Source: Pseudomonas sp. DG56-2
GTDB lineage: Bacteria; Pseudomonadota; Gammaproteobacteria; Pseudomonadales; Pseudomonadaceae
Reading direction: 5' to 3'
Length of the DNA stretch: 64,000 nt
Assembly (NCBI RefSeq): GCF_004803755.1
Contig: NZ_CP032311.1
Location: 2,186,501-2,250,500, forward strand
The notes under the pieces are model-generated. The model was given only the letters and a program-made list of their open reading frames with translations. It was not told where the DNA came from and made no database searches. A program made the translations under genes and the position numbers. Shown piece after piece: positions 24,227-45,757 of the stretch (positions within the stretch are counted from its first letter, which is position 1; every line of letters starts with the position of its first letter).

Positions 24227-24243
24227 CACACAAGGAGTGACTC

Positions 24244-24774: not shown

Positions 24775-24777
24775 GCC

Positions 24778-25281
24778 GTGCCGCGCACATTTTGCGCGTT
24801 GCTGGGGCTAGCGGCTTGGGTCGCGCCGGCAACCTTGACTGCGGCCACCACCAGCACGTTTCAGGTAAGTGCCCAAGTAGTGGCGGGGTGCTTGGTGGTC
24901 GGCGGCTCGAGCAACTATGGCGAGCTCAATTTCGGCACCTTTTCAGCACTCGCCAGCGGCACGCCCACTATCGCGCTCAGCGCCGCGTCGGTGTCCCTGC
25001 AGTGCACGCCGGGGGTCACATTGCGCATGAGCATCGATGCGGGGCGCAACCCGGGCAGCGGCGGCCGCAATCTCAAGCGCAACGCCGGCAGCCAATTGCT
25101 GGCCTATCAATTGTTCAGCGATGCCGGTTTAAGTCAGCCGCTGGGCATCGACCAGATCGTCGCAGTGAACTACAGCGACGCCAATGCCATCAAGTTACCG
25201 GTCTACGCTCGGGCACAGCTGACCGGCAAGGTGCCGGCCGGCAGTTACACCGATGTGGTGCAGGTGGTGCTGACCTGGTGA
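24778..25281 (+). CDS. Csu-type pilus subunit 4 (SCPU domain)
   Basis: A 167 aa SCPU protein starting GTG 24778, three bases after the previous stop, so probably translated by coupling. The signal peptide (TFCALLGLAAWVAPATLTAA) is followed by VSAQVVAGCLVVG, ELNFGTFSAL, SLQCTPGVTLRMSIDAG and a terminal SYTDVVQVVLTW. It is likely a minor subunit between shaft and tip. The weak start signal suggests lower output than subunit 3. Confidence 0.86.
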   Translation: MPRTFCALLGLAAWVAPATLTAATTSTFQVSAQVVAGCLVVGGSSNYGELNFGTFSALASGTPTIALSAASVSLQCTPGVTLRMSIDAGRNPGSGGRNLKRNAGSQLLAYQLFSDAGLSQPLGIDQIVAVNYSDANAIKLPVYARAQLTGKVPAGSYTDVVQVVLTW

Positions 25282-25322
25282 GAGGACTTGCCAGGTGTAT
25301 TCGACAACCAAGGAGATTGTGA

Positions 25323-26114
25323 ATGAGGGCATGCGCTGACAATTCGCACTGGATGATCAAATGGCTTGGTTGTGCGCTGGTCATGCTGGCGGGTGCGCCT
25401 TTGCAGGCGGCCACATCGGTGCTGATCTGGCCGATCGATCCTGTGCTTGAGGCCGACCAGAAGGCCGGTGCGCTGTGGCTGGAAAATCGCGGCACCACAG
25501 CGGCAAATCTGCAGGTAAGGGTGTTCGCCTGGCGCCAGGGTGATTATGACGATCAATACCAGGCCCAGCGCGAGATCATCGGCAGCCCGCCGGTGGCAAC
25601 GATCGCGCCGGGACAAAAACAGTTGATCCGTCTGACCCGCACCGGCCCCTCTGCGGTAGGCCAGGAACAAGCTTACCGGATCATCATCGACGAAATTCCT
25701 CCGGCCTGGTCCGAGAACACACCTGCGGACAAACCACAGGCGGCTATCCGCTTTCAGATGCGCTACTCGGTGCCGCTGTTCGTCTATGGGCAAGGTCTGT
25801 GGGGCAAGACGGATGCCACTGGCCAGCGCGATCCGGCAAGTGTTGGCAAACCGGCATTGAGCTGGCGTCAGGTGTCGGTCCAGGGCCGGCCCTACGTGGA
25901 AGTACGCAACACCGGGCCGGTGCATGCGCGCCTGACCGATGTGGTGTTACAGCAAGGTGGGCAGAGCCGTCCGCTGGTCGAAGGTCTGCTCGGCTATGTG
26001 TTGCCCGGGGCCAGCATGCGCTGGCCAGTGCCGCAACCGATAACAGCTGCCACGGTCCTCAAAGGGCGGGTCAATGGTCAGGAGCCGGCGCAAACCCTGA
26101 GTCAGGGCCAATGA
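25323..26114 (+). CDS. csuC: Csu-type periplasmic pilus chaperone (CsuC-like)
   Basis: Periplasmic chaperone of 263 aa, two immunoglobulin-like domains, which donates a strand to subunits and delivers them to the usher. The signal peptide ends PLQAA; conserved features are the N-terminal SVLIWPIDPVLEADQKAGALWLEN, the IAPGQKQLIRLTR strand and EQAYRIIIDEIPP, which hold the subunit-anchoring positions of archaic FGL-type chaperones. AAGGAG stands before ATG 25323. It is the fifth gene of the pilus operon. Confidence 0.91.
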   Translation: MRACADNSHWMIKWLGCALVMLAGAPLQAATSVLIWPIDPVLEADQKAGALWLENRGTTAANLQVRVFAWRQGDYDDQYQAQREIIGSPPVATIAPGQKQLIRLTRTGPSAVGQEQAYRIIIDEIPPAWSENTPADKPQAAIRFQMRYSVPLFVYGQGLWGKTDATGQRDPASVGKPALSWRQVSVQGRPYVEVRNTGPVHARLTDVVLQQGGQSRPLVEGLLGYVLPGASMRWPVPQPITAATVLKGRVNGQEPAQTLSQGQ

Positions 26115-26159
26115 GTACAAGGTAGTACCGCAGGAGCAGGGCCCAGGGAGGACCCGGTC

Positions 26160-26180
26160 ATGGTTGGATACGGTGCGTGA
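26160..26180 (+). other. Six-codon leader ORF coupled to the usher gene
   Basis: AGGGAGGA (26145-26152) sits 7 bases before ATG 26160, which opens the mini-ORF MVGYGA. Its TGA (26178-26180) overlaps the usher's GTG start (26177-26179) in a GTGA arrangement. The usher start itself has no ribosome site within range, so ribosomes probably load at the mini-ORF and re-initiate. Confidence 0.55.
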
Positions 26181-28528
26181 GTATTTCTCCGACCTTGGTG
26201 CGTCCATTGGCGCTGACGGCCTGTGCGCTGCTGACGCTGGGCAGCGCGTCGCTGCTGGCTGGCGAGCTGCCTGCTCCGCCCACCAGCCTGGAGGCGGTTG
26301 GCGATGCGCAGTTGTACCTGGAGTTGGTGGTCAACCAGATGAGCAGCCCTGAATTGGTGGTGGTGCAGCAACGTGCCGGGCGTCTGTACATGGCTTCGGC
26401 GGACCTGCAGGCGGCAGGCGTGCAAGTGCCGGAGCTGGCGGCAGGGGAGGTGGCGCTCGACAGTATCGAGGGCCTGCACGTCGACTACGACAGTCAGGCG
26501 CAGCGCCTGCTGTTGCAAGTGCCGCCTGCCTGGTTGCCGCTGCAGACCCTGGGCAACCGGCAGCTGTATCCGCCCAGCGAGGCGCGCAGCAGTTTGGGTG
26601 GTTTGTTCAACTACGACCTGTACCTGAACGACACCGATGACGGCGGCACCTACCTTGCAGCTTGGAATGAACTGCGCCTGTTCGACAGTTGGGGCACCCT
26701 GTCGACAACCGGTCAATGGCGCCAGGCACTGGGCGGCAACCAGTTCGACGACAGCCAGCAGGGCTTTCGCCGCTACGACACAACTTGGCGTTACACCGAT
26801 GAGGCGCGCTTGCTGACCCTGGAAGTGGGCGACGTCCTCAGCGGCGCGTTGCCCTGGACCAGTTCGGTACGCTTGGGGGGCGTGCAGCTGTCGCGGGACT
26901 TTGCCGTGCGCCCGGATCTGGTCACCTATCCACTGCCAGCATTCGCAGGGGAAGCCGCAGTGCCATCTTCGCTGGATCTGTTCATCAATGGCTACAAGAG
27001 CGCCAGCTCAGAATTGCAACCCGGACCCTATACGCTGACCAATATTCCCTTCATCAATGGCGCTGGCGAAGCGGTGGTGGTGACTACCGACGCCCTTGGA
27101 CGGCAGGTCTCCACGACCTTGCCGTTCTACGTCACCAGCAGCTTGTTGCAGAAGGGCCTTGCGGACTTCTCCCTGGCAGCTGGCAGCCTGCGTCGTGACT
27201 ATGCCTTGCGAGACTTCGCTTACGGCCCAGGCGTGACCGCCGCCAGCCTGCGTTATGGCCTGACGGATCGCTTCACTTTGGAAAGCCATGCCGAGGCGGC
27301 CGAGTCCCTGGCCTTGGGTGGCGTGGGCGGCAACCTGCAGGTCGGCAATTGGGGCGTGGTCAACGCTGCGCTCAGCCAGAGCCGTTTTGACAGCCGCAGT
27401 GGCCAGCAAATGAGTCTGGGCTATCAGTACAACAGCCCGCGTCTGGGCTTCAACTATCAGCGCTTGCAGCGCCGTGGCGATTACGCCGACCTGTCATTGC
27501 TCGACAGCCCTTACACCCGCCTGAGCCAGCGTAGCGAACAAGTCACCCTGAGCCTGAACCTCAATCGCTATGGCAGTCTGGGCGCAGGCTATTTCGATGT
27601 GCGCGCAGGGGACAACAGTCGCACCCGCCTGCTCAACCTGACCTGGAGTAAACCGCTGTGGGGCAACAGCAGCCTGTACCTGTCGGCGAACCGTGAGATC
27701 GGCGAGAGCCAATGGGCAGTACAGGCGCAATGGGTGATTCCGTTCGACCTCAATGGCACCTTGAGCCTGAGCGCTGAGCGTAACGACAACGGCGAGAGTC
27801 TGCAGCGGGTCAACTACAGTCGTGCAGTGCCGGGTGAGGGGGGCGTAGGGTTCAACCTTGGCTACGCCAGCGGTGACCAGGAGGCCTATCGTCAGGCCGA
27901 CCTGACCTGGCGTCTGCAGTCTGTCCAGCTGCAGGTGGGGGCTTACGGCAATGCTGCTGACACCACGCGCTGGGCCGATGCCAGCGGTTCGCTGGTGTGG
28001 ATGGACTCGGGCGTGTTTGCCGCCAATCGTATCGACGACGCATTTGTCGTGGTTAGCACCGATGGCTTTGCCGATGTGCCGGTTCGCTACGAAAACCAGT
28101 TGGTGGGGCGCACCGACAGCCAGGGGCATTTGCTCGTGCCCTGGAGCAGCGGTTATTACCGGGGCAAGTATGAAATCGACCCGATGGAGCTGCCCAGCAC
28201 CGTGCAGGTGGCCCAGGTCGAGCAACGTGTAGCGGTGCGTCGTGGAGCAGGTTACTTGCTCGAATTTCCCATGCAGCATGTAGTTGCGGCCAGTATTCAT
28301 CTGGTCGATAGCGCGCAGATTGATCTGCCTTTGGGCAGCCAGGTGCTGCACGAGCAGAGCGGTGCGCGTACGGTCGTCGGTTGGGATGGGTTGGTGTACC
28401 TGGAGGGGCTCGCCGAACATAACAGCCTGGTGGTCGAGCGCAGTGCGGGCGGTAGTTGTCGCGTTCAGTTCACGCTCGACAATGATCAGGCGCAGGTGCC
28501 GTTGATTGGGCCGCTGGTGTGTCGGTGA
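26177..28528 (+). CDS. csuD: Csu-type outer-membrane usher
   Basis: Outer-membrane usher of 783 aa of the FimD/PapC family that assembles and secretes pilus subunits. The signal peptide is followed by an N-terminal domain (LYLELVVNQ), a middle region around LYLNDTDDGGTYLAAWNE, the plug region near SLDLFINGYKSASSELQPG, many beta-strands of the 24-strand barrel, and C-terminal plug-like domains ending CRVQFTLDNDQAQVPLIGPLVCR. The GTG start overlaps the stop of a six-codon leader ORF. The last codons overlap the start of the tip-protein gene. Confidence 0.92.
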   Translation: MSISPTLVRPLALTACALLTLGSASLLAGELPAPPTSLEAVGDAQLYLELVVNQMSSPELVVVQQRAGRLYMASADLQAAGVQVPELAAGEVALDSIEGLHVDYDSQAQRLLLQVPPAWLPLQTLGNRQLYPPSEARSSLGGLFNYDLYLNDTDDGGTYLAAWNELRLFDSWGTLSTTGQWRQALGGNQFDDSQQGFRRYDTTWRYTDEARLLTLEVGDVLSGALPWTSSVRLGGVQLSRDFAVRPDLVTYPLPAFAGEAAVPSSLDLFINGYKSASSELQPGPYTLTNIPFINGAGEAVVVTTDALGRQVSTTLPFYVTSSLLQKGLADFSLAAGSLRRDYALRDFAYGPGVTAASLRYGLTDRFTLESHAEAAESLALGGVGGNLQVGNWGVVNAALSQSRFDSRSGQQMSLGYQYNSPRLGFNYQRLQRRGDYADLSLLDSPYTRLSQRSEQVTLSLNLNRYGSLGAGYFDVRAGDNSRTRLLNLTWSKPLWGNSSLYLSANREIGESQWAVQAQWVIPFDLNGTLSLSAERNDNGESLQRVNYSRAVPGEGGVGFNLGYASGDQEAYRQADLTWRLQSVQLQVGAYGNAADTTRWADASGSLVWMDSGVFAANRIDDAFVVVSTDGFADVPVRYENQLVGRTDSQGHLLVPWSSGYYRGKYEIDPMELPSTVQVAQVEQRVAVRRGAGYLLEFPMQHVVAASIHLVDSAQIDLPLGSQVLHEQSGARTVVGWDGLVYLEGLAEHNSLVVERSAGGSCRVQFTLDNDQAQVPLIGPLVCR

Positions 28529-29490
28529 GGTATCTATTGGCGACGCTGGCCTTGCTGGCCAGTGCCCAGGCGCACGCCTTGTGTTCGGTGGTAGCCACCA
28601 GCCCTGCGGACTTTGGCACGGTCAACTCGACGTTGGTGCGTGATGCGGTTCAATCGGCATCGACCCTTAATGCAGGCTTGCAGTGCACCGGTTCGTTGCT
28701 GAGTCTGTTGGCGACTAACGACCATTTTTATGCCACGTTCACCCCGACTGCCGGCACCACTGGTCTGGTGGGGCCAACGGGTGATGTCATCAGGTACACC
28801 TTGTATGCCAATAACACCACCAACTACGCCATCACCCGTGGCCAGGCCTATGATTTTGCGCGCAATGGCATTATCGATGCCCTTGGCTTGCTCAACGGTA
28901 CGGTGCCCAAGAGCGTGCCGATCTATCTGAAGACCCAGGTCGGCAGCAATGTTGCGGCAGGCCTCTATCAGGAAACTTTCACGGTGGAGTGGAGCATCAA
29001 CTATTGCTATGGCATCGGTGCGCTCGGTGCCTGCCTTGGCCGGCAGACGTTCACACAGTCAACCAGCCTGACGGTCAAACTGACGGTAAGCAACGATTGC
29101 CAGATCACTACCCCTCCTGTGAGCTTCGGCAGTGCGCCGGTGATCAGCGGCTTTTCCGCAGTCAACCAGAGCGTCAATTTGTCCTGCACCAAGGGCAGCA
29201 GTTATACCGTGGGCCTGGGGGAAGGGCAGAACGCGGCAGGTGGGCGACGGCGGATGAAGTCCGCTGCCAGTAACTTTCTGGCCTACGATATTTTCAAGAG
29301 CGCCGGCTCTCAGCGGTGGGGCTCGCTTACCACGGCACGCCGGGTCAGTAGCGACGCCGACATCAACCCTGGGGCGGGCACCGGTACGGGCAGTCAGATT
29401 TTCAACTACAACGCGAGGATCTACCCCGACCAGAGCACGCCGCCTGTAGGCACTTACCTGGATAACGTGATCCTCGATGTGCAGTTCTGA
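28525..29490 (+). CDS. csuE: Csu-type pilus tip protein (CsuE-like, two SCPU domains)
   Basis: A 321 aa secreted protein with signal peptide RYLLATLALLASAQAHA and two SCPU domains (residues ~20-165 and ~185-320). It matches the two-domain tip adhesin CsuE whose exposed hydrophobic loops bind plastics and other surfaces. The start GTG 28525 overlaps the usher's TGA as GTGA; a GTG six bases earlier is also in frame. Cysteines CSVV, LQCTG, NDCQIT and LSCTKG fit two disulfide-bonded domains. It closes the pilus operon. Confidence 0.9.
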   Translation: MRYLLATLALLASAQAHALCSVVATSPADFGTVNSTLVRDAVQSASTLNAGLQCTGSLLSLLATNDHFYATFTPTAGTTGLVGPTGDVIRYTLYANNTTNYAITRGQAYDFARNGIIDALGLLNGTVPKSVPIYLKTQVGSNVAAGLYQETFTVEWSINYCYGIGALGACLGRQTFTQSTSLTVKLTVSNDCQITTPPVSFGSAPVISGFSAVNQSVNLSCTKGSSYTVGLGEGQNAAGGRRRMKSAASNFLAYDIFKSAGSQRWGSLTTARRVSSDADINPGAGTGTGSQIFNYNARIYPDQSTPPVGTYLDNVILDVQF

Positions 29491-33969: not shown

Positions 33970-34439
33970 CCCTCGCCAATCGCCGCCACCTCTACCGACC
34001 CGGACCCATTCCATTGCAGCTTATCCCCGCCACCGACCAGCACTGCGCTTTTGCCCGCGATCTTACCCGCCGGGCCATGCTGCGTTACTACCGTGAATTC
34101 GATCTGCTCTGGATCGAAGAAGCGTTCGATCAGGCCTGGGGCTGGCGTGAACAATGGTTGATCATGGAAAACGACGAAGTGCTGGGCTTTTGCAGTCTCA
34201 GCCAGGATCGTCACGCGCTGTACATCCGTGAATTGCATTTGCTCGAGCAGGCGCGCGGACGGGGCATCGGGGGAGAGGTGCTGGAGCAGTTGGCCGGCTG
34301 GGCTGCAGATCGGCGCTTGGGGCAGTTACGCCTGACCGTGTTCAAAAGCAACCCGGCGCAGGCATTGTACCGGCGCCGGGGCTTTGAAGTGGTGGGTGAG
34401 GATGAATGCTTTTTGCGTATGCAGCGGGTTATCGGCTAG
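33942..34439 (+). CDS. GNAT-family N-acetyltransferase
   Basis: An acetyltransferase of up to 165 aa. The acetyl-CoA binding motif is in YIRELHLLEQARGRGIGGEVLEQLAGWA (RGRGIG is the pyrophosphate loop), and the C-terminal NPAQALYRRRGFEVVGEDECF completes the GNAT fold. The substrate is unknown. The start is uncertain: ATG 33942 overlaps DUF488 by 28 bases and has no clear ribosome site, while TTG 34014 fits the beginning of the domain. Its 3' end overlaps the convergent algG-like gene by 11 bp. Confidence 0.84.
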   Translation: MLCRRNQALTLANRRHLYRPGPIPLQLIPATDQHCAFARDLTRRAMLRYYREFDLLWIEEAFDQAWGWREQWLIMENDEVLGFCSLSQDRHALYIRELHLLEQARGRGIGGEVLEQLAGWAADRRLGQLRLTVFKSNPAQALYRRRGFEVVGEDECFLRMQRVIG

Positions 34440-35931
34440 CGCTCTGTACACACGACAACGCACCTGGTGCCGCCGCCTGTGCCACCCGATTGACACGGAC
34501 AATACAGCCCTGGCGCTGGGTGGCATCAAGCAAGGGCCCCTGAACGCTCAGCAGGTCGCCGATCAACAGGTTTTGCAACAGCGGTTTTCCTTCGAAGCGA
34601 TTATGGCCGAGCACCACCTGCTGCACACCCTCGATACGTACCACCGCCTTGCCTGCTGTGCCCAGGACATTGCCGCTGAGGGTCAGCGGCCCCGGCAGCG
34701 GCGCGGAGTTGCGCAAGCTGATGGCGTATTCAGGGGTATTGCCGATGCGATTGTTAACCATGATTGCACCGCTCACTTCGCTGGCGTCCACGGCGCTGCC
34801 CTGGCTGTTGCCGATCAGGTTGTCTTCGATCAACAGCGGGGCCTGTGTGGAAGGTGCCAGGCTACGCAGTTGCACGCCGTTGCCGCGGCTGTCACCGATC
34901 AGGTTGGCACTGAGCAGTAGCGCACCTTGCTGGTCGCTGACTTCAATGGCGGCCTTGCTGGCACCAAGTATCAGGTTGCGCTCGATGCGAGCCACCGATT
35001 GTCCGCGCACACGAATGCCGCTGTTGTTGTCGATACCGCGCAGTTGGTTGTTGACCACGCTGACTCGGCTGTCGCGTACGTCGATGGCGTACTGCTGGGA
35101 CTGTTCGAAGCGGCTGTCGACGATCTGCGCCTGGCTGTGTTGCAGTTCGACGGCGCTGGACAGCTCGTTGAACTGGCTGTTGCGCACGATCACCGTGGCC
35201 TGCGCGGTGTTCGCCGACTGTTGGCTGCTCAAGGCAGTGGTCAGGCCTCTGGACAAGTTGGCGTTGTAGCCCAGGCGCTCCAGCGTCGAGCCAATCACCT
35301 GGGTATGGCTGCCTGCCCAGGCCACGACGAACGGGCGCCAGGCACGGTCGGTGCTGCTGGGTTTGTCACCGGCAACGCTGGCTAGGCGTGACTGGTTCAG
35401 GCCCAACCAGCCTTGGTTGATCAGCGCGGTACCGGAGAAGCTGTACAAATACAGGCTCGTGCCTTCGAGCACCAGGCCGCCATCGCCCGCAATCATCAGC
35501 GGGTAGCTGAGCAGGTAACCGTCCTTGTAGCGTTTGATGATGTGCGGGTTGTTCAGGTCATCATGCAGTTGCGCGAGTGTAATGCTGCCGCCACGAACGA
35601 GCACCGCTTGTGGGTGGTGTGCCTGATAACCGGCCATGGCCCGAAACAATCCATTGTTGACGAACGGCTCGAACGGCCAGCTACCGGCCTGCGAGGAGAA
35701 CATCGGTTGCAGGCTGACACTGGCACGGCCGACCGGGCGCGGGCGCTCGGTAACCTGCACGTGCACCGCTTGGCTTACCTGTCGCTGCACCTGCTGCAAC
35801 TGTGCTTGATGCTCATTCTCGCTGACGACACTCAGCGCTTGCTGCAGCGGCAGGCTTTGGCTTGCGGCCTGCGCCGTGCCTGCGCAGAGCAGGACGGCAA
35901 GACAGCAAAGGGATAGAGGGCGCATGGCCAT
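34429..35931 (-). CDS. algG: AlgG-like right-handed beta-helix protein lacking the epimerase DPHD motif
   Basis: A periplasmic protein of 500 aa with signal peptide LCCLAVLLCAGTAQA and a parallel beta-helix (repeating N-x-L/I-x-G turns) from about residue 200 to 440. Family resemblance to mannuronan C5-epimerase AlgG is clear in the run PFVVAWAGSHTQVIGSTLERLGY. However, where P. aeruginosa AlgG has YGIDPHDRSHG with its catalytic histidine, this protein reads YAIDVRDSRV (residues 281-290), so the histidine is absent. It may be a structural scaffold protein or have altered chemistry. It is last in the operon and follows the lyase gene by 17 bp. Confidence 0.75.
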   Translation of the reverse strand: MAMRPLSLCCLAVLLCAGTAQAASQSLPLQQALSVVSENEHQAQLQQVQRQVSQAVHVQVTERPRPVGRASVSLQPMFSSQAGSWPFEPFVNNGLFRAMAGYQAHHPQAVLVRGGSITLAQLHDDLNNPHIIKRYKDGYLLSYPLMIAGDGGLVLEGTSLYLYSFSGTALINQGWLGLNQSRLASVAGDKPSSTDRAWRPFVVAWAGSHTQVIGSTLERLGYNANLSRGLTTALSSQQSANTAQATVIVRNSQFNELSSAVELQHSQAQIVDSRFEQSQQYAIDVRDSRVSVVNNQLRGIDNNSGIRVRGQSVARIERNLILGASKAAIEVSDQQGALLLSANLIGDSRGNGVQLRSLAPSTQAPLLIEDNLIGNSQGSAVDASEVSGAIMVNNRIGNTPEYAISLRNSAPLPGPLTLSGNVLGTAGKAVVRIEGVQQVVLGHNRFEGKPLLQNLLIGDLLSVQGPLLDATQRQGCIVRVNRVAQAAAPGALSCVQSASR

Positions 35932-35948: not shown

Positions 35949-37064
35949 TTACGGCAATTTGGGGTAGAGCGGCTTGAGCGGGCCGCCAATCTGGCTGTAG
36001 TTGTCGACGTCGCCGTCTTCGTTTTCGTACAGCTGGCGCGCCAGGCGATGATCCGGCGTGCGTGCCAGAAAGGGGATAAGCCAGGCCAGTTTATAAGGGG
36101 CCACCGAGGTCTGTGACTTGCCCTTGAGTTCAGGCAACTCGTCGGGGTCGAGGATGCTGCGCGCGGCAAAGTTGGCCAGCAGATCCAGGGTCTGTTGATC
36201 CTCGGCGCTCCAAGGCAAGTGATTGACCCGCGCCGATTCGGCGAGCAATACCAGAGGAACCAGTGCGTACTGACTGTAGGTGGCGGCCAGCTTGCCCCGA
36301 GCGACTTCCAGTGGCAGATAGGCATAACTGCCATCACTGGCTTTGACGGCTTGCTGCAAGCCACGGCGCAGGTTGCCGTCAGCCCACTGGATGAAGTCGT
36401 CGCGCTGAATCAACATGCCGGTTGCCGCCACGGCCCAGGCAGCCCAGTAATCATGGTTGTTGAACCAGGCGAAGCTGGAGGCGCGGCGTGGTTGGTATTC
36501 AGCAATGATGCGCTCGGCCAATTGGGCGAACCATTCGCGCTGTTGTGCCGACAGTTGTAACTTGCCGTCGCTGGCGGCCTGGGTCATCAGTAAGGTCGAG
36601 GCCATTGCCGCCACCGCCCATTTGCGCGCCGCCATGCCGGTGCTGCTGGCGTCCGGGTTGAGCAGGGCGCCGGCTTGTGCCCAGTGTTGCAGCCATTGGT
36701 CCTGGCAGGCCAGTGCCATATTGGCTTCCTGTGGCGTTTTCGCCCGCTGGAAGCGCTTGCTGGCATAGATAAGCCCACCAATGAACTGCTTGACCTGCTT
36801 GCCGATTTTTTCGCTGTCGGCGTCCGGGCTGCTGCGCAACGTGGACTTGGTCGCATCACGCTGGTCGTACTTGCTCTTCATCTGCAGGCTGCCGGTGTAC
36901 GGCGCCGGAGGCTCCTTGCTGCACTGTAGGGTACGGTAGTCGGCGATCATCGCCGACTGCGTGGTTGCCCGAGGCGGCCAGATCGAATTGGCTGCCAGGC
37001 TTTGACTCAGTTGCAGGCTGGCGCAAAGGCCCAGGGCCAGTACGCTCCAGGTCTTCACAGACAT
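35949..37064 (-). CDS. algL: AlgL-like periplasmic alginate lyase
   Basis: A 371 aa protein with signal peptide VLALGLCASLQLSQSLAA and the all-alpha barrel of polysaccharide lyase family 5. AlgL landmarks are present: PPAPYTGSL, the catalytic NNHDYWAAW (Asn203-His204) and a tyrosine pair in YSQYAL (Tyr263, Tyr266). The substrate-neutralising arginine expected before YHNYAL is replaced by a lysine-leucine arrangement. AlgL normally clears polymer trapped in the periplasm. Its ATG lies inside the last codons of algX (10-bp overlap). Confidence 0.83.
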   Translation of the reverse strand: MSVKTWSVLALGLCASLQLSQSLAANSIWPPRATTQSAMIADYRTLQCSKEPPAPYTGSLQMKSKYDQRDATKSTLRSSPDADSEKIGKQVKQFIGGLIYASKRFQRAKTPQEANMALACQDQWLQHWAQAGALLNPDASSTGMAARKWAVAAMASTLLMTQAASDGKLQLSAQQREWFAQLAERIIAEYQPRRASSFAWFNNHDYWAAWAVAATGMLIQRDDFIQWADGNLRRGLQQAVKASDGSYAYLPLEVARGKLAATYSQYALVPLVLLAESARVNHLPWSAEDQQTLDLLANFAARSILDPDELPELKGKSQTSVAPYKLAWLIPFLARTPDHRLARQLYENEDGDVDNYSQIGGPLKPLYPKLP

Positions 37065-38461
37065 AGTCGAGTTTCCACCTGGGTGGCGGCAGTGCCGGGT
37101 TTGGTTGGCTCCATGAACACCGAGAGCAGGTTGGCACCGGCAAATTCCTTGGCGCGGCTCAACTCCAAGTAGTACTGGCCGCCGGTAACCACCGCTTCGC
37201 GGCGGAACCAGACCTTGTCCCGAGCACCGTTGTCGTAATAGACGATCACGTAGAAATCCTTGACGTTCTTGTCGCTGATGCGGATATCCAGGAAGCCGCC
37301 ATTGACGGTCTTGCGCGCTTCGCCTGCGTTGCTGAGCAGCTCGATACGGTCGTTGACCTTCAGCGCAGGACGCTGCAGGCGGTTGGCCATAACTTCGGTG
37401 GACACCGGGCAGCCGCCCTTGATCGCCGGAATCAGCTGGCGATACATCAGGTCGGACTCCAACTGATAGTTGGCCGGCAGCTCCCAGATAATCAGCTTGG
37501 GCGGCGCCTTGGGCTTGTAGTTCTCCGACAACAGGTATTCGAGCAACGAGCCATCCTGGCCAACGCCCGGCAGGGCGTAGTTGAGGATGTCGACGTCCAG
37601 GTATTGCTTGAGGTAGCCGTCGAAGTTGAACTGCTTGCTTTCGTCTTCTCGAGCGGCGGCGTTACTGTCACCAACGAGGATTACCTGCGGATCCGGAGCA
37701 TCGTCGAACAAGGCATCGGCGCCCTGGTCTTCGGGGATCGTCTGGAAGCCGCGCACGTACTGGAAACCGTAGTTGTTGCCACAGATGTAGCTCAGTGCCA
37801 GGTTCAAGGTGCCGTCCTTGGGCAGCATCACCCCAGGCTCGGTGCGATAGTGCTTCTTGTCCAGCGCGGCATAGAACGGCTGGCGCCGGACTTCTTCGGC
37901 CAGAAGACGTGCGGTGGCCTCGGCGCCAGCCGGTGTCCAGTGGTGATCGCGGCGAAAGAAAAACTCACCCTCAGGTGGGTTCTGCACCAGTTGCATCATC
38001 GGTGCGACCACCGCGCCGCCACTGCGCAGTTGCTGCAGGTAGTTGCCCAAGTTGCCACTGGCGCGATTGAAGTCGAAGCCATGCAGTTTGTCGGCATACA
38101 GCTTGTCGCGGTGCATCAGCCCGCGCGTTGGCTGGATGGCCATGGCCACCTGGATGCCCTGACGATGGAAGGTGTCCATCAGGCGGGCGAACTCTGGGCG
38201 CATAGGCGCCGGGATGCCGAAATCGTTGGTCAGGTCCACGGCTGAACGAAACAGCCAGCGGTCCTTGCCCGGAACGATTTCCCGCATCAACTTCATGCGG
38301 CCTTCGGCGTAGTGCTGGGGGTTGCTCAAACCGGGGCAAACCAGGCACTCCAGGCCTTTGCAGGTGGCCTGGTTACTGTCGGCGGCGACACCCTGCACGC
38401 TGAACAGGGCACCTGCGGCGGCGAGGCCAAGGGCGTATAGGCTTTTCATGGCGCCACTCAC
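37055..38461 (-). CDS. algX: AlgX-like alginate O-acetyltransferase
   Basis: A periplasmic protein, 468 aa, with an SGNH-hydrolase-like catalytic domain and C-terminal carbohydrate-binding domain. The signal peptide ends GVAA. The catalytic triad is inferred from DHHW (Asp172, His174) and the nucleophile Ser266 in LVGDSN; AlgX is known to transfer acetyl groups to mannuronate. The GTG start overlaps the algF stop (GTGA); ATG 38449 is an alternative. In the canonical operon AlgX sits between AlgG and AlgL, whereas here it is placed after algF. Confidence 0.87.
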   Translation of the reverse strand: MSGAMKSLYALGLAAAGALFSVQGVAADSNQATCKGLECLVCPGLSNPQHYAEGRMKLMREIVPGKDRWLFRSAVDLTNDFGIPAPMRPEFARLMDTFHRQGIQVAMAIQPTRGLMHRDKLYADKLHGFDFNRASGNLGNYLQQLRSGGAVVAPMMQLVQNPPEGEFFFRRDHHWTPAGAEATARLLAEEVRRQPFYAALDKKHYRTEPGVMLPKDGTLNLALSYICGNNYGFQYVRGFQTIPEDQGADALFDDAPDPQVILVGDSNAAAREDESKQFNFDGYLKQYLDVDILNYALPGVGQDGSLLEYLLSENYKPKAPPKLIIWELPANYQLESDLMYRQLIPAIKGGCPVSTEVMANRLQRPALKVNDRIELLSNAGEARKTVNGGFLDIRISDKNVKDFYVIVYYDNGARDKVWFRREAVVTGGQYYLELSRAKEFAGANLLSVFMEPTKPGTAATQVETRLCL

Positions 38462-39102
38462 TCGCTCGCGTCGATGCTGTTGGCCATGCTCATGCTCCGA
38501 TAGCCAGTACCCTGAGGCAGCAGTACGTAGCTGTAGGAGCGGCCCTTTTTCAGGAACAGCTCGTCGAACTGGGCAACTTTCTGCTGATCGTCATAGGCGG
38601 CAAAACCGATCTTGATTTCGTTGACCATACGGCTGCCGGTTTGGTCCTGGCCCAGGGTGTCGACCACGACGCTTTTGCCGTCGACGGTCTTGAGCGCCAC
38701 TTTGGTCGGGGTCAGGTTATAGAACGCGATTTGCGCTTTTTTCGGCTCGTTGACGTATTTGTCGGCGATCAGGGTCAACTTGCTGCCGTCATAGACCACG
38801 GTGCTGGCGGCGTTGGCCTTGAGCTGCGGTTCGATAGCCTTGTTCCCTACGGCGATCTTGTGGCTGCCGGCGGGCGTGAAGCGGTAGCCACTGAGTTGCC
38901 CGGCGGCAACGCGCTGAGGGGTGAGTTTGCCGCTCAGGGTCACGTCGATGTTGCTGTCGGACAAGTTGAGGACGCGCACGAAGGCCGAGTCGGCAGGGGC
39001 CACGGCGTCGTACAGGTCAGCATTGCCCTCTGCGGCGATGCCCTGGCTGCTGATCAATACGAGGGTAGTGGCGGTGAGCAATTGCTTGAGCGAACGATTC
39101 AT
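38458..39102 (-). CDS. algF: AlgF-like alginate O-acetylation protein
   Basis: A 214 aa periplasmic protein with signal peptide LLTATTLVLISSQGIAAE. It matches AlgF by ADLYDAVAPADSAFVRVLNLSDSNIDVTLSGK at its start and the C-terminal ELFLKKGRSYSYVLLP. AlgF is required for alginate acetylation together with AlgI, AlgJ and AlgX, probably relaying or holding components in the periplasm. AAGGAG precedes ATG 39102. It lies between algJ and algX, linked to algX by a four-base overlap. Confidence 0.88.
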   Translation of the reverse strand: MNRSLKQLLTATTLVLISSQGIAAEGNADLYDAVAPADSAFVRVLNLSDSNIDVTLSGKLTPQRVAAGQLSGYRFTPAGSHKIAVGNKAIEPQLKANAASTVVYDGSKLTLIADKYVNEPKKAQIAFYNLTPTKVALKTVDGKSVVVDTLGQDQTGSRMVNEIKIGFAAYDDQQKVAQFDELFLKKGRSYSYVLLPQGTGYRSMSMANSIDASE

Positions 39103-39121: not shown

Positions 39122-40216
39122 TCAGAAATGTTGGGTCTGGCCGGGTCGGCTCAATGAGCCAAGACGGTGGGCAAGCAGGGTGCGCAGGGGGAACTCCCAG
39201 ACCACTGTGTCGATCTGTGGGTTGTTCAGGTCGTCGCTGGCCAGGAACTGGTTCATGGCTTCGAACGGCCCGCGGGCTTCCACCGCGACACTGAGCAGGT
39301 CGCGGTTGAGGGCTTCTTTGAGAAAGCCTGTGAAGTTCCAGTCGTCGATCTTGCTGTAGCTGGTGCCGACCAGCAGCAGGCTCTGTTGTTCGTCGGCGAA
39401 CAAGGCGTCACTGTCCTGTTCGGCCTTGAGGGTTTCGTACAGGGCAATCTGATTGGGACCGAACTGCGGGGCCAGTTGTGCATGATTGAACTGCACATAG
39501 TTCATCAGGTCGCCCTTGACCGCTTTCTGCGCAACCTTGTGCGACACGTAGCGCTCATCACCCAACAGCTCGGGGCGCTGACGGGCCAGCTCATAGGCGG
39601 TCAGACGCGCGCCTTCCGGGCTCCAATGGGTATCGGACTTGAGAAAAAGCTCCGGGCCACCGAGGTTGCTCAAGAACGCTGAACGCACCGGCGTGACGTC
39701 GATCTTGTTTGCCTGCAGGCCTGCGACGAAGCGGTCGTACAGACTGATCGCGCGTGGGTCGACAGCACGCTCGGCGTGGCTGGAGTAGATGTCTACTTTC
39801 ATCGGCAGGGGAAGCACGATCAGGCGCTTGTTGTGTGCCTTGAGCTTTTCTTCCACCTCGGCGATCTGCGCCAACTGACCATCAAGGTTGGCTTGCAGGT
39901 TGTTCGGCACACGGTACTCCTGGTTGGTGAACAACCAGCCGTCCTTGCCCAGCACCACACCTTTGGTGCCCTCGCCAAACAGGCGATATTGGGCGTTGGC
40001 CCACAGTTCTACCGACGGTTCGCGCAGGAAGAAGCGTTTGTCGTAGACCTGCTCGAATTTGCGCAGCAATTTGCCATCGACAAACAGGTTCCAGGCATCG
40101 CTCTGGTTCTTGGCGAAACTGAACACCGGTGGCAGGGAGTAGATGAACATCCCTGCCAGCGCCACGGCAAAAAGAATGCCGTTGACCTTGCTCGCCGAAT
40201 TCATGACCGGGTACAT
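39122..40216 (-). CDS. algJ: AlgJ-like alginate O-acetyltransferase
   Basis: A 364 aa inner-membrane-anchored periplasmic protein with an uncleaved N-terminal helix (residues 11-31) and an SGNH-like domain. The active-site residues are seen in DTHW (Asp195, His197) and GTSYS (Ser286 or Ser288), as in P. aeruginosa AlgJ. It works with the MBOAT protein AlgI to transfer acetyl groups outwards. AGGAG just before ATG 40216 supports this start; another ATG follows four codons later. Confidence 0.89.
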   Translation of the reverse strand: MYPVMNSASKVNGILFAVALAGMFIYSLPPVFSFAKNQSDAWNLFVDGKLLRKFEQVYDKRFFLREPSVELWANAQYRLFGEGTKGVVLGKDGWLFTNQEYRVPNNLQANLDGQLAQIAEVEEKLKAHNKRLIVLPLPMKVDIYSSHAERAVDPRAISLYDRFVAGLQANKIDVTPVRSAFLSNLGGPELFLKSDTHWSPEGARLTAYELARQRPELLGDERYVSHKVAQKAVKGDLMNYVQFNHAQLAPQFGPNQIALYETLKAEQDSDALFADEQQSLLLVGTSYSKIDDWNFTGFLKEALNRDLLSVAVEARGPFEAMNQFLASDDLNNPQIDTVVWEFPLRTLLAHRLGSLSRPGQTQHF

Positions 40217-40225
40217 GGCGGTCTC

Positions 40226-41653
40226 CTAAAACTGAAAATACAGGAAGGGTGAAAAGGAGTTCGCCGCCAGGCTGCTCAGGGCCAGGGCGAAGCCGGCCCA
40301 CAGCAGCACGGCCTTGAGGCCACCGACATGACGCATGAAGTAGTGCTCTTTGTTGCCGGCGTAGTAACGCACGTTGTTGCTACCGGCCAGCACCAGCCAG
40401 CAGAGCGCGACGACCGCAAATGACATGGCCATTTTCGAGGCACCAAATACATAGAGGTCCAGCGACCCCAGGCCATTGAGACCGAACAGCGCCTGGTAGA
40501 TATCCAGGCTGTGGCGCAGGTCGTTGGTGAAGAACAGCGGCATACTCAGGATGATCAGCACGAAGGTGCGCAGGTTGCGCCCCAGGTGATAAGGCGTGGT
40601 GATCTTGGTTGCCAGGTTGTACTTGCGTTCGATGACCATGCCCAGGCCAAAGAACAGACCCCAGCAGATAAAGGCAAAACTCGCACCGTGCCACAGTCCC
40701 GACAGCAACATGGTGTAGACCAGCGCTGGCAATGCGCCGGCAACGCGCTTGCGCACCAGCGGCATGTACACGTAATCGCGCAGGAAATGCGCCAGGGTCA
40801 TGTGCCAGCGTGCCCAGAACTCGGTGATGCTCTGGGACACGTACGGCTGGTTGAAGTTTTCCGGGAAGCGGAACCCCATCATCAATGCCAGGCCCAAGGC
40901 CATATGACTGTAGCCAGCGAAGTCGAAGTACAGCTGCAGGGTCGAGACCATCAGGCCGAACCAGGCGTCACTGAGCTGCAATGTGCCTTCGCTGATGAAC
41001 AGCACGTTGATCGGCGCCAGTTGGTCGGCAATCAGTACCTTCATGATAAAGCCGAGCATGAAGCGACAAACCCCGAGGGAAAACAGCTCCAGAGAGTGAG
41101 TACGTTGGCGCAGCTGCGGAGCCAGTTGGCTGTAACGCAGGATCGGGCCGGCAACCAGGTGCGGGAACAACGCCACGAAGGCGGCGAAGTCGATGAAGTT
41201 GTTCGTTGGCGTGGCATCTTTGCGGTAGATGTCGACGATGTAGCTCAGGGCGTGGAACACATAGAAGGAAATGCCCAACGGCAGGAAGATCGTTTCCAGG
41301 GTCCAGGTGTTGATGCCCAGTGGCGCGAGCAGGGCGGCAAGTACTTCAGCGCCGAAGTTGGCGTACTTGAAGTAACCCAGGGTCGACAGGTTGCCGATGA
41401 TGCCGATCCACAGCAGGCGTAATGCCCAGCGTTTGTCACCTGCGTCCAGGCGCGCCTTGATACGCAGGCCGAACCAGTAGTTCCAGTAGGTGATGGCAAC
41501 GAACAGCAGCAAAAAGTCAGGTCGCCACCAGGCATAAAAGATGTAGCTGGCAGCGACAATGACGGTCGAGCGCCACTGCGGGCGCGACAGGAAGTACACC
41601 GCCAGGAACAAAGGCAGGTACAGGAACAGAAAGACGTTGGAGGCGAAGATCAT
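40226..41653 (-). CDS. algI: AlgI-like MBOAT O-acyltransferase
   Basis: A membrane-bound O-acyltransferase of 475 aa with about ten helices that brings acetyl groups across the inner membrane for polymer acetylation. The invariant histidine is His322 in GLWHGASFAF, the same residue number as in P. aeruginosa AlgI, and the family WARWHMTLAHFLRDYVYMPL segment is at 280-299. It is preceded by algE and followed by algJ at 10 bp. It is well conserved compared with the epimerase-like protein. Confidence 0.93.
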   Translation of the reverse strand: MIFASNVFLFLYLPLFLAVYFLSRPQWRSTVIVAASYIFYAWWRPDFLLLFVAITYWNYWFGLRIKARLDAGDKRWALRLLWIGIIGNLSTLGYFKYANFGAEVLAALLAPLGINTWTLETIFLPLGISFYVFHALSYIVDIYRKDATPTNNFIDFAAFVALFPHLVAGPILRYSQLAPQLRQRTHSLELFSLGVCRFMLGFIMKVLIADQLAPINVLFISEGTLQLSDAWFGLMVSTLQLYFDFAGYSHMALGLALMMGFRFPENFNQPYVSQSITEFWARWHMTLAHFLRDYVYMPLVRKRVAGALPALVYTMLLSGLWHGASFAFICWGLFFGLGMVIERKYNLATKITTPYHLGRNLRTFVLIILSMPLFFTNDLRHSLDIYQALFGLNGLGSLDLYVFGASKMAMSFAVVALCWLVLAGSNNVRYYAGNKEHYFMRHVGGLKAVLLWAGFALALSSLAANSFSPFLYFQF

Positions 41654-41667
41654 CGAAGGGTCCGTCC

Positions 41668-43125
41668 TTAGTAGCTGACTACGACGCCGAGGCTCAACTG
41701 GTAATCGTCACCGGTTTTCAATGCACTACCGGCATTGAGGTAACTGGCGCTGACCAACGCGTTGACATCCAGGTGCTTGCCGTCGAGTGCCACCGGAAAC
41801 ATCTTCCAGTAGTAGTTGAGGTCGAGCATTTGCCCGACGTTGTCGCCCTTCCCGTACTGGCCATTGTCGAGTTGCCTCTGGCGCTTGCTGCGGCTGTCGC
41901 TGGCCATGCGGATCGGCACCACGCCATCGTCGTCGCGCATGTTCAGTTGGGTAAGACGCAGGTCCAGGGCGCTGCGCGGGGTGGGTTGGGTTTCCAGGGC
42001 GATGCCGTAGTAACTCAGGTTCTGCAGATCAATGCTGACAAAGGAGCTGGTCAGGCGCGTGCTGTACGAGCCTTGGCGCGTGATGCGGTCGGACTGGATG
42101 GTGTTGAGGCGGAAACCGTCGTTGTCGTCGCTGGGCTTGTCGGTGAGGCCGCCGCGCAGGGCCACGCGCGGGGTCCACGGCAGGGTATCGAAGCGCTTGC
42201 CGACTTCACCCAAAGCGACCCAACCCTTGCTGCTATGGCCAGTGCTGGTCACACCAGTGCCATTGGTGTTGTCCATCTTGCCATCGAGCGCGGCAAGTTC
42301 CACGTGGTAGTCGCTGATGACCGCCGACGGCAGATTGTCGCCCTTGAAGAACAGTCCGTAGCGCATGCCCTTGAAGTCGTAGCGGTCGTCGACATCATGG
42401 TCGCTGCGGTCGTTCTCGTACATCATGCGCACGCCGGCTCGGTTGTTCTCGCTCCAGCGGTAGGCGTATTCGCCCATCACATAGAGCGTGCGTTCTTCGC
42501 TGGCCGGGAGGCTGTTGACGTCGGTGTTGTAGTTATGGAATTTCTGGCCCACGGCGAGGAAGGCGTCGGAAAAGGTGTCCTTGTAGTTGAAACGCACAGA
42601 CTCAAGGCTGTCGTCCCACCACAGGCCGTAGTCATCGAAGAAACGCTGACGGCCGAATGACATCGAGTAGCGCGGATCGTCGCCGATCAGGTTGCGCTTC
42701 ACATACAGCTCGCGCAGCTCGGCATACCAGCCTTGCGGTTGCTCACGAACGTTATTGTTGTTGGTAGATTCGTTCTGCAGGTTGCCCGACTGGCTGGAGT
42801 CGTAGTTCAGCCACATGCGGCCGTAGACCATCCACTTGGCCCAGCGTTTTTCCGGCGAATACCAGGCGAACGAAGGCTCATAGCGCAGGCTGTAGAACTT
42901 CTCGCGGTCGCGGTCGACCTGTGAGTCTTCCGGACCGTAGCCGGTCTGTACCGTAAGCTTGTTGAAAAACTCCGAGGTGATGACAGGCGTGCTGCCATCG
43001 CTGGGCATCACTCGCACAGGTTCGGTGCTATCAGCTTCAGGGCCGGTGATTTCTTCTGCGGCCATGGCCGGGTATAGCGGGGTCAGGGCCAGCAGGGCAC
43101 CGAACAATGAGTGATGCGCTTTCAC
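41668..43125 (-). CDS. algE: AlgE-like outer-membrane alginate export porin
   Basis: An outer-membrane protein of 485 aa predicted to form the 18-stranded export barrel. It has a signal peptide ending AMAAEE, and the AlgE-like features RYEPSFAWYSPEKRW, SMSFGRQRFFDDYGLWWDD and LGEVGKRFDTLPWTPRVALRGGLTD, ending with an aromatic SLGVVVSY. The start is GTG 43125 with AAGGAG; it overlaps the algK stop as GTGA, indicating coupled synthesis with its periplasmic partner AlgK. Confidence 0.91.
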   Translation of the reverse strand: MKAHHSLFGALLALTPLYPAMAAEEITGPEADSTEPVRVMPSDGSTPVITSEFFNKLTVQTGYGPEDSQVDRDREKFYSLRYEPSFAWYSPEKRWAKWMVYGRMWLNYDSSQSGNLQNESTNNNNVREQPQGWYAELRELYVKRNLIGDDPRYSMSFGRQRFFDDYGLWWDDSLESVRFNYKDTFSDAFLAVGQKFHNYNTDVNSLPASEERTLYVMGEYAYRWSENNRAGVRMMYENDRSDHDVDDRYDFKGMRYGLFFKGDNLPSAVISDYHVELAALDGKMDNTNGTGVTSTGHSSKGWVALGEVGKRFDTLPWTPRVALRGGLTDKPSDDNDGFRLNTIQSDRITRQGSYSTRLTSSFVSIDLQNLSYYGIALETQPTPRSALDLRLTQLNMRDDDGVVPIRMASDSRSKRQRQLDNGQYGKGDNVGQMLDLNYYWKMFPVALDGKHLDVNALVSASYLNAGSALKTGDDYQLSLGVVVSY

Positions 43126-44573
43126 AGGGTTGTCTCCTTCAACAGATCGGCGCGCGCCGCCAGGGCGCGGTCGATGTCATCCTTTTTGAGAGTTTTTTCC
43201 AGGCGCTTGATCAAGCTGCGCGCACCGTTTTCACCGAGTTCCATCGCCACCTGGGCGTAGGCGTAGGCTTTGACCGGGTCATGACAGATGGCGCGGCCGT
43301 AAGCATGCAAGGTCGCCATGCGGTACCAGGCGGTGGTGGAACCGGCGTCGGCCTGGGCCTGGAAAATTTGCAGGGCTTTTTCTTGATCCGGTTGATCTTC
43401 CACACCTTTGCTGTAGTACTCGGCCAGCAGCAGTTGAGCGTCGGGGTAATGGCTGGCGATCAGTTCATCGATCAGCGCCCGGGCCTTCTGCGGGTCGAGT
43501 GTCAGCCAGTTGTTGACCATGTAGAAAGACGCCTGCAGGACCTTGGCGCGGGTGGGTTCGCGGGCCTGCACCTGGTCGATCAGGGCCTGGGTTTCCTCGG
43601 CGTTGTGCTCGGTGGGCGTGGAAATCATGAAGTTGGCTCTGGACACCATGGCCGGTACGAAGCCACGGTCGGCGGCGTTGTCACGCCAGCGGTGGGCTTC
43701 GGCCAGGGCCGCATCGAGGACATCGCGTTGAGCCTTTTCCGCCGCCAGTTGCGCCGCATCGGGTTGCGTACCGGCAGGGCCCATGGCAGCGCTTTGGCGC
43801 GCGTAGCGGTCTGCTTCGAAATCAGCGCGCTGCACACTGCTGATGCTTTCGAGCAGTGAGCCAATGCGCTGCACAATCTCAACTGCAAGGGTAGAGCGCT
43901 GGGGCTCAAGGCTACGGGCGAAGACCGGAAACGCGCGGTCCTGATCGTCACCCAGGAAGCGGTAATAACGATCGATTGCGCGCACGTCCACACGCGCCGC
44001 CTGCTGGTACCAATGCTCTGCGCCCTGACGATCGCCTTGGCGTTCAGCCAGCACGGCACGGAAAAGCTCCGGGCGGCAGTTGAGCAGGCACGACTGCTGG
44101 TACAGCGCCAGCAGTTGCTCGGCATCGCCGGTGGAAACCAATTGCGGGTAGACCAGGAACACCTCAAGGGTGGTACTGGCGTTGCGCGGGTCCAGGGTAG
44201 CCGGGTAGCGCGTCAGGGCCTGGGCCATCCAGTCGCGTTGTTCCTGTTGCAGGCTGGGGGTGCGGTCGAGCAGGCGTGCCAGGGAAGTCAGCGCCGGAAT
44301 CTGACCGTGGCCGTCCGCGAATGCCTCCTTGTACAGGCCGATGATTTCCATGCGGTTGGCACCATTGGTGCTGGCCAGGACATCGCCCAACAACAGCTTG
44401 GACGCCAGGTCGCCACGCTCCGACAGCAGGCGCAGATCGCCGCTGACATTAGCACTCGGGTCCTTGTACAGCGCGTAGCGGATCTGATCCAGACTCTGTC
44501 CGGCCGAGACGGCGCCGGCACAAGCCACGCACAGGCTGGCCAGCAACAGGCGGGAGGGCATCATCGCGTTCAT
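43122..44573 (-). CDS. algK: AlgK-like TPR/Sel1 scaffold protein without clear lipobox
   Basis: A 483 aa periplasmic protein made of helical Sel1/TPR-like repeats, for example GDLASKLLLGDVLA, GDRQGAEHWYQQAARV, ALIDELIASHYPDAQLLLAEYYSKG and AWYRMATLHAYGRA. By position (between alg44 and algE) it is AlgK, the scaffold linking synthase and porin. P. aeruginosa AlgK is a lipoprotein; here the signal region SLCVACAGAVSAGQS has cysteines but no good [LVI]-x-[AGS]-C lipobox, so a soluble form is possible. ATG 44573 has AAGGAAG upstream, preferred to TTG 44579. Confidence 0.84.
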   Translation of the reverse strand: MNAMMPSRLLLASLCVACAGAVSAGQSLDQIRYALYKDPSANVSGDLRLLSERGDLASKLLLGDVLASTNGANRMEIIGLYKEAFADGHGQIPALTSLARLLDRTPSLQQEQRDWMAQALTRYPATLDPRNASTTLEVFLVYPQLVSTGDAEQLLALYQQSCLLNCRPELFRAVLAERQGDRQGAEHWYQQAARVDVRAIDRYYRFLGDDQDRAFPVFARSLEPQRSTLAVEIVQRIGSLLESISSVQRADFEADRYARQSAAMGPAGTQPDAAQLAAEKAQRDVLDAALAEAHRWRDNAADRGFVPAMVSRANFMISTPTEHNAEETQALIDQVQAREPTRAKVLQASFYMVNNWLTLDPQKARALIDELIASHYPDAQLLLAEYYSKGVEDQPDQEKALQIFQAQADAGSTTAWYRMATLHAYGRAICHDPVKAYAYAQVAMELGENGARSLIKRLEKTLKKDDIDRALAARADLLKETTL

Positions 44574-44593
44574 CGCCAATTCTTCCTTTTTGC

Positions 44594-45757
44594 TCAGCGC
44601 GATGCCGTGAACGGCAGGCTCAGGAACAGATCAACAGCCACCGGCTTCTGATAAGCCTCGCGCGGCAATGGGGAGTCCGGGGCGATGGTCAGCGCCAGGT
44701 TTTTGTTGACCTCGTCGACACGGGAATCCACTACCTTGCCGGTGAAGTTTTCATCCAGACCAAACACCTTCATATCCACCGACTTCACTCGGGAGATATC
44801 GGCCAGCTTGTCGAAGGGCACGTTGGCGGTGACGAACAGGCCTTCATTGCGCGGTAGCAAGTGCATCAGCGGCGCCTGCTTGTAGCCATAACCATCGAGA
44901 GGCTTGGTGGGGAAGTAGACTTCGCAATCGCACGGGCTGTTGATCACCGTTTCGATAGTTGCGCGCCCAAGCAGGGTCTGCAGGTCGCCTGGCGACAGAT
45001 CCGCCACGGCTTTCATGTCCGCAGGGCTGGTGAAGCTGGTAGCCAACTGGGTAGAGATATTGGCCAAGGGTTGACCGGCCTTCACATCCGCCTGGCCGGG
45101 CTTGAGGAGGAACTTGACGTAGCCGTTGTCGGGCATGCTGATGACTTGCGCGTTGGCTGAAACCTGCGCCTGTACGGCAGGAATGCGGAAGAACAGCATG
45201 TAGCTCTTGTAGGCCACGAAGCCCGCTGCGGCGAGGCCGGCAGCGGCATAGAGCAGGGTACCGGCCACGGCCTTGAGGCGATCGCTGCCGTTGCGCGCAC
45301 TGGCGTGCTGTTGCTTGCGTTCCTTGATGTAGTTTTCTCGCTGCATCACGTTGAACAGACCGTTGATGTCGGCAATTTCGCCCGATAGGTAGGCACTGAT
45401 GATGTAGCGCAAGATGTCGCGCTTTTGCGCATCCAGGTCGACGAACTGCGCACCTACTTCCTCACCGCGCTGGGAAACGATGCGCACTTTACTGTCCAGG
45501 CTCAGGTTCAACTGATTCAGGCGCAGGCGAATCGAGGCGTTGTACAGGCTGCCGATGGTCAGCGGCTTGTCGTGACGCAGGCCAATGCCGCCCAGGGAGA
45601 TGTCCTGCACGTTGGTTTCGATGGTGGGCTGGCCGGCCGCTGTAAGGGTGATGTGGGCATTGATCCGGGTGCGCACGTGCTGGCGTTCGTCGATAGCTTC
45701 GTGAACGACATTGGCTGCAGCTTTAGCGGGAACTGTAGGTGTACTTGAGCTACTCAT
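44594..45757 (-). CDS. alg44: Alg44-like c-di-GMP receptor subunit of the synthase
   Basis: A 387 aa inner-membrane protein with a cytoplasmic PilZ domain (residues ~20-130), one transmembrane helix (~165-188) and a periplasmic adaptor-like domain. The c-di-GMP binding motifs are intact: RQHVR (Arg25, Arg29) and DISLGG (Asp52, Ser54, Gly57). The periplasmic SPCDCEV motif is also kept. Alg44 binding of c-di-GMP activates Alg8, so this polymer should be under second-messenger control. It lies directly downstream of the synthase gene. Confidence 0.92.
   Translation of the reverse strand: MSSSSTPTVPAKAAANVVHEAIDERQHVRTRINAHITLTAAGQPTIETNVQDISLGGIGLRHDKPLTIGSLYNASIRLRLNQLNLSLDSKVRIVSQRGEEVGAQFVDLDAQKRDILRYIISAYLSGEIADINGLFNVMQRENYIKERKQQHASARNGSDRLKAVAGTLLYAAAGLAAAGFVAYKSYMLFFRIPAVQAQVSANAQVISMPDNGYVKFLLKPGQADVKAGQPLANISTQLATSFTSPADMKAVADLSPGDLQTLLGRATIETVINSPCDCEVYFPTKPLDGYGYKQAPLMHLLPRNEGLFVTANVPFDKLADISRVKSVDMKVFGLDENFTGKVVDSRVDEVNKNLALTIAPDSPLPREAYQKPVAVDLFLSLPFTASR

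Follow-up and report, generated by a model that had tools for sequence, protein, structure and literature searches.

AlgG is described as serving the alginate pathway in two ways: it epimerizes the polymer and, separately, its presence is needed for the polymer to exit the periplasm uncut (PMC3815931, PMC4444821). Catalytic mutants of AlgG made in the laboratory in P. fluorescens and P. aeruginosa (Gimmestad 2003 and Jain 2003, cited in PMC3815931 and PMC4444821) are stated to support secretion and make mannuronan, with the alginate yield kept (PMC3815931), and loss of AlgG is stated to leave AlgL-cut oligomers (PMC4444821). Tyr314 and the histidine of the DPHD motif are named as active-site residues, and an arginine is described as neutralizing the carboxylate (PMC4444821). 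In one in vivo co-immunoprecipitation, AlgK was not recovered with the AlgG of P. aeruginosa (PMC9734138); therefore, the scaffold model is debated. The epm cluster of P. alkylphenolia is held responsible for an alginate-like polysaccharide (PMC5890197, citing Lee et al. 2014, Appl Microbiol Biotechnol 98:4137), and the Pap cluster of P. fluorescens F113 likewise concerns an extra acidic Pseudomonas polysaccharide (PMC7716237).

We analyzed a window of 64,000 nucleotides from Pseudomonas sp. DG56-2 (the whole stretch of DNA under study), in which eleven minus-strand genes run from 48759 to 34429 in the order D-8-44-K-E-I-J-F-X-L-G. The epmG-like gene, whose product we call EpmG, is the last of them. 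The features are listed below; the coordinates of the two codon stretches were computed from the ORF ends.

47452..48759, minus strand: algD-like GDP-mannose dehydrogenase, 75% identical to canonical AlgD
45773..47296, minus strand: alg8-like mannuronan synthase, 52% identical to canonical Alg8
44594..45757, minus strand: alg44-like PilZ (c-di-GMP) copolymerase
43122..44579, minus strand: algK-like TPR protein, NCBIfam AlgK score 53 bits of 700, 30% identical over 142 aa
41668..43125, minus strand: algE-like outer-membrane porin, 30% identical over 128 aa to the canonical protein
40226..41653, minus strand: algI-like MBOAT, histidine kept
39122..40216, minus strand: algJ-like acetyltransferase, Asp/His/Ser kept
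38458..39102, minus strand: algF-like gene
37055..38461, minus strand: algX-like acetyltransferase, SGNH Asp/His/Ser kept
35949..37064, minus strand: algL-like polyM lyase (PL5), N201/H202/R249/Y256 equivalents kept
34429..35931, minus strand: epmG-like gene, AlgG homologue without the DPHD histidine, 500 aa with an ATG start, predicted periplasmic
35062..35091, minus strand: codons 281–290 (YAIDVRDSRV), aligned to the AlgG YGIDPHD region, with Arg286 in the place of His319
34942..35013, minus strand: codons 307–330, with the family-invariant Arg307 and Glu330 and also Lys326 (152/154)

Homologues of AlgD, Alg8, Alg44, K, E, I, J, F, X and L were all present, as in an alginate-type synthase-dependent operon, and the algE-like porin had no Pfam or NCBIfam match. 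The N-terminus of EpmG is signal-like and ends in AQA, as judged by eye. The same genome carries a separate canonical 12-gene alginate operon at approximately 989–1005 kb of the contig, the AlgG of which has DPHD. This canonical set holds homologues of all 11 genes (for K and E over 142 and 128 aa only), and protein identity between the two operons over aligned stretches was 75% for D, 52% for 8, 45% for I and 23–34% for the others. By these identities, the two alginate-type gene sets of the genome are distant paralogues. Their order also differs, as the canonical operon runs G-X-L-I-J-F-A, whereas I-J-F-X-L-G is found here without algA. In a scan of a genome collection, 44, K, E, I, J, F, X, L and G occurred together in 39/39 loci, D and 8 lying beyond the fetched flanks; one locus (L022) was listed with X before F, probably from overlapping stop-to-stop frames. 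The closest named relative found was P. arcuscaelestis P66 (L004), with 96% identity for G and 98–100% for 44 to L. In two more distant alginate-like operons with the same order (L065 and L066), the G-like gene is encoded on the other strand from the remaining genes, and past it lies an algA-like gene.

Two P. alkylphenolica genomes (L006 and L007) carry the operon, with 79–96% protein identity over the nine genes seen, and the L007 genome has two Alg8-type genes, 98% and 54% identical to the canonical Alg8 of DG56-2. Judged from these genomes, the operon is very probably the counterpart of the P. alkylphenolia epm cluster. That cluster reportedly comprises 11 ORFs, and eleven genes are present here; multicellular structures reportedly depend on its epmG and epmJ, and its polymer is said to be a substituted polymannuronic acid. 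Among the literature matches listed, none relevant to epmG, epmJ or the polymer wording was found. Pap was rejected as the identity of the operon: it has lipid-carrier, flippase and polymerase genes, and its paper contrasts Pap with alginate (PMC7716237).

The earlier note on this DNA had placed EpmG in the AlgG family, and this match is real. Pfam found a generic beta-helix domain and NosD in EpmG, nothing else, and the NCBIfam model epimerase_AlgG (NF038177) matched at E 8.9e-11 with 41 bits, below its equivalog cut-off of 700. A PDB search with the single EpmG sequence gave four matches, all AlgG chains (best E 1.6e-5). With the EpmG family profile, AlgG chains (best E 2.5e-28) were the sole matches below E 0.01, followed by 11 other chains at E 0.029 to 0.29. 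Profile-profile alignment (hhalign) of the EpmG family against 13 AlgG sequences reached E 9e-32 over residues 69–483, and identity to the canonical AlgG of the same genome was 23% over 214 aa. EpmG is therefore an AlgG-type beta-helix homologue that shares fold and register with canonical AlgG (PDB 4NK6, 4OZY and 4OZZ). In a tree of 28 rows, AlgG (support 100/100) was separate from the Pseudomonas EpmG family (87/98, an open fork), with long branches joined.

The register Y281=Y314, D284=D317, R286=H319 and D287=D320 was agreed by the PDB comparison, MAFFT, hhalign and the profile alignment to 4ozy. We take the catalytic histidine of AlgG to be His319 and its carboxylate-neutralizing arginine to be Arg345. 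The earlier note's reading that Arg286 replaces the catalytic histidine held, with YAIDVRDSRV confirmed at residues 281–290 and YAIDVRD falling on YGIDPHD in all four alignments. Following the position through orthologues, which it had also suggested, gave arginine in 26, glutamine in 13 and asparagine in one of 40 genomic copies (the window and the 39 loci), with histidine in none. We then aligned 154 distinct homologues, obtained from 160 rows (the window, the 39 loci and the best 120 of 135 database proteins), a clustered, Pseudomonas-heavy set that does not amount to 154 independent tests. The site held R in 75, Q in 27, N, A and S in 10 each, G in 9 and L in 5, and more rarely H (3), K (2) and I, E and D (1 each), so that its column ranks at the 91st percentile for variability across residues 69–475. 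Repeating the protein search with the family alignment returned 135 proteins again, with four new ids among the 120 matches listed and scoring limited to 8000 candidates. By comparison, DPHD was present in all 12 canonical AlgG proteins of the MAFFT alignment, the histidine in 13/13 sequences of the hhalign set, and the motif DPH[DE] in 0/39 EpmG loci. A sequencing error was ruled out by the Arg/Gln/Asn site common to the 40 genomic copies. Judged from these alignments, the lost catalytic site is a family-wide trait of this alginate-like operon type and not a strain-specific lesion. No report of a natural AlgG without DPHD was found among the literature matches listed, Lee et al. 2014 and Wolfram et al. 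2014 being outside the reach of that search.

The substitution is real, yet the picture of a single exchanged residue was too narrow, since most of the AlgG groove is replaced. Among 29 charged, His, Tyr or Trp residues of the helix (residues 199–436) that are invariant in AlgG, a number that is an upper estimate because it was defined on only 13 sequences, five were kept at >=90% in the EpmG family (R228, W234, Y251, Y314 and D317). Columns that were not kept include His319, Arg345, Asp368, Arg369, Tyr392, Glu393, Arg413 and Arg415. In the hhalign column of Arg345, EpmG has Gly310 (Gly in 149/154) and lacks the arginine; the adjoining Arg309 is Arg in 127/154 and is paired with Arg345 by MAFFT. 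The equivalents of Tyr314 (Tyr281, 153/154) and Asp317 (Asp284, 154/154) are retained. Thus, in the alignments the whole epimerase groove looks replaced, with one arguable survivor, Arg309. No conserved replacement His-Asp pair was found in the 160 rows over residues 69–475, where histidine reaches at least half of the rows only at 105, 106, 123, 209 and 265. The nearest candidate, H265 beside D287, was rejected, with histidine in just 112/160 rows.

We also asked what became of the other subunits. The N201, H202, R249 and Y256 equivalents of the lyase, the Asp/His/Ser of X and J and the MBOAT histidine of I were kept in 39/39 loci, and the PilZ columns of the alg44-like protein in 37–39 of 39 (the PilZ arginines in 37 and 38), the remainder being gaps. 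Counting exact matches gave fewer loci for four of the motifs (32, 34, 34 and 36 of 39) because adjacent residues vary. By these conserved residues, the AlgG-like subunit is alone among the catalytic subunits tested in lacking its site.

The reading we lean towards is that EpmG is probably a non-epimerase secretion scaffold and that the polymer of the operon is mainly (acetylated) polymannuronate. On this view, EpmG derives from AlgG and belongs to a second secretion operon, which is alginate-like, synthase-dependent and of the epm type; it has retained the AlgG beta-helix and not the epimerase site. As a periplasmic scaffold or chain guide, it would receive mannuronan at the Alg8/44-like synthase, lead it to the AlgK/E-like exit and protect it from the AlgL-like lyase. 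The operon alone would then yield (O-acetylated) polymannuronate with little or no guluronate, which would presumably gel only weakly with calcium. Homology to AlgG along most of the protein, loss of the groove residues throughout the family, purifying selection, intact partner motifs, the conserved operon and carriers without AlgG over the cut-off are what we show; the missing epimerase activity, the scaffold role and the polymer composition are what we infer. EpmG would fit the secretion role of AlgG without its epimerization, and the structural role that the earlier note had offered as an alternative is consistent with AlgG itself, in which the catalytic mutants keep the yield (PMC3815931). 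Unlike those laboratory mutants, EpmG lost the site in nature, and the loss extends across a whole family; canonical AlgG has the groove that EpmG lost. An alginate-like operon with an epimerase-site-less AlgG relative would mean that the two roles of AlgG were separated by natural evolution. Against this reading stand histidine at the site in 3/154 homologues, the invariant D284, R307 and E330 with the kept Tyr314 and Asp317 equivalents, which exceed what a mere scaffold would evidently require, the canonical AlgG of the same cell, which could epimerize the polymer, and the co-immunoprecipitation without AlgK (PMC9734138).

The product without guluronate that the earlier note considered possible would be expected for the operon alone; across the organism it is not assured because the intact canonical AlgG might act in trans. 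A further DPHD-type epimerase in the genome of DG56-2 was rejected: a YGxDPH DNA pattern, which would miss a Tyr-Ala form, found only the canonical algG there, and the backward pattern used as a control also gave one match. EpmG was detected in 46 of 398 evenly drawn Pseudomonas genomes, that of DG56-2 counted (E up to 1e-60), and 42 of these 46 carriers also had AlgG over the cut-off. The four without it (G331, G444, G655 and G716) were all rated 100% complete, and G655 and G716 are single-contig. Among the genomes of the fetched loci (38 of 39), 35 had AlgG over the cut-off and three (G017, G033 and G034, completeness not given) did not. G331 and G033 have identical coordinates; therefore, six distinct genomes are without AlgG over the cut-off. 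A DPHD-type DNA motif was found in none of the seven genome handles, one of the two scans being blind to the Tyr-Ala form. Each handle has one Alg8-type gene (E up to 1e-30), and the six AlgG-less genomes searched for an AlgD-like gene have one of 73–86% identity. In G444 and G655 this gene (73% identity) lies far from the operon (G444:C2:645960-647267 and G655:C1:3443779-3445086). With this operon type, NMR could directly address whether mannuronan is made naturally.

In these six genomes the histidine site holds R (L021), Q (L037, L038 and L104) or H (L102 and L103); of the single-contig carriers, G655 has histidine and G716 glutamine. L102 (G444) and L103 (G655), which are among the 32 loci of a second set, have DLHD in EpmG. 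At the Arg309 position both have Ala with Gly after it; therefore, the second AlgG residue is still missing. The histidine could have arisen by drift at an unconstrained site or be a base that was regained, and its presence in two AlgG-less carriers is against the simplest reading. In P. brassicae (contig C175 of G010 and G404, near 2809), the match to the canonical AlgG is split into two neighbouring pieces; the gene may be broken, or the assembly may be faulty.

The residues invariant in the EpmG family bear on a different role. Asp284, Arg307 and Glu330 were each present in 154/154 homologues and Lys326 in 152/154, and position 262 was Glu or Asp in 148/154. The strand pattern [AG]-[IVL]-x1-[VIL]-x2 recurs approximately every 23–28 residues of the alignment; D284, R307 and E330 take the outward x1 position of consecutive rungs B, C and D, and K326 is just N-terminal to strand D. 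E262 was placed one rung before D284 by spacing, by hand, as the alignment table labels this rung one residue out of phase. D284, R307 and E330 are predicted to stack on one face, where their line could serve catalysis or binding or form a salt-bridge ladder. One alternative is that EpmG is a re-tooled enzyme whose new site is built from E262/D284, R307, K326 and E330, with each rung contributing one outward residue; it would act on the polymer as a hydrolase, transglycosylase or lyase or by another epimerization. The conservation of these residues, the shared outward position and the retained Tyr314 and Asp317 equivalents speak for it, and D284, R307, K326 and E330 also occurred in 33/33 sequences of the second set (32 loci and the window), which overlaps the 39-locus set in many genomes and is not independent of it. 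However, the charge-alternating stack could be a structural salt-bridge ladder, and the set breaks up beyond the family: although L045 keeps the whole of it, L046 keeps D284 and K326 with histidine in the R307 and E330 columns, and L047–L049 keep R307 alone. None of these distant relatives (L045–L049) has histidine at the catalytic site. We regard such an enzyme as possible but unlikely. The more specific proposal, in which AlgG lost its His/Arg epimerase site and was then turned into another polymer-acting enzyme whose carboxylate-rich outward line (E262, D284, R307 and E330, with K326) in the same groove would cut, transfer or modify polymannuronate, seems doubtful to us. If true, it would imply, together with the AlgG-free carriers, a natural mannuronan-based matrix and a new type of polymer-editing enzyme.

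It is quite improbable that EpmG has remained a mannuronan C5-epimerase that works by a modified mechanism, for instance with Tyr281 as the base and Arg307 or Arg309 as the charge neutralizer. The kept Tyr314 and Asp317 equivalents and the location of R309 beside the R345 column are compatible with this mechanism, and M-specific lyases are described as using tyrosine as a base (PMC4444821, PMC8829089). However, 24/29 AlgG invariants of the helix region were not kept at 90%, and DPHD is stated to be present in all brown-algal epimerases of one survey (PMC11468063).

Finally, the dN/dS of epmG against the window was 0.12–0.47 (median 0.23, 39/39 pairs), rough values given that many dS were near or above 1. 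The epmG-like gene is under purifying selection. An open reading frame spans the match in the window as well as in 39 orthologues; together with dN/dS, these open frames in the orthologues ruled out a pseudogene. Decay of a redundant copy under relaxed selection, with its function gone, would suit the presence of canonical AlgG in most carriers, but it is largely refuted and extremely improbable in view of the open frames, these dN/dS values, the conserved operon and the six carriers without AlgG over the cut-off.

Divergent from the operon and upstream of it are a helix-turn-helix regulator (49394..49822, plus strand) and a response regulator (49903..50541, plus strand), presumably gacA-like. 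The pair adjoins epmD in 5/8 fetched upstream regions; neither was found in L108–L110, and L108 is also without epmD. The region 48760..49280 upstream of epmD is AT-rich, with several TTGAC- or TGAC-like repeats seen by eye. An AlgU-type promoter was rejected, its consensus having 0 matches in the window, and no RNA family reached the gathering score of Rfam in 48700–50000. Elsewhere in the window, at 23092..29490 (plus strand), lies a spore-coat-U-type chaperone-usher pilus cluster with SCPU subunits, a PapD-like chaperone and an usher.
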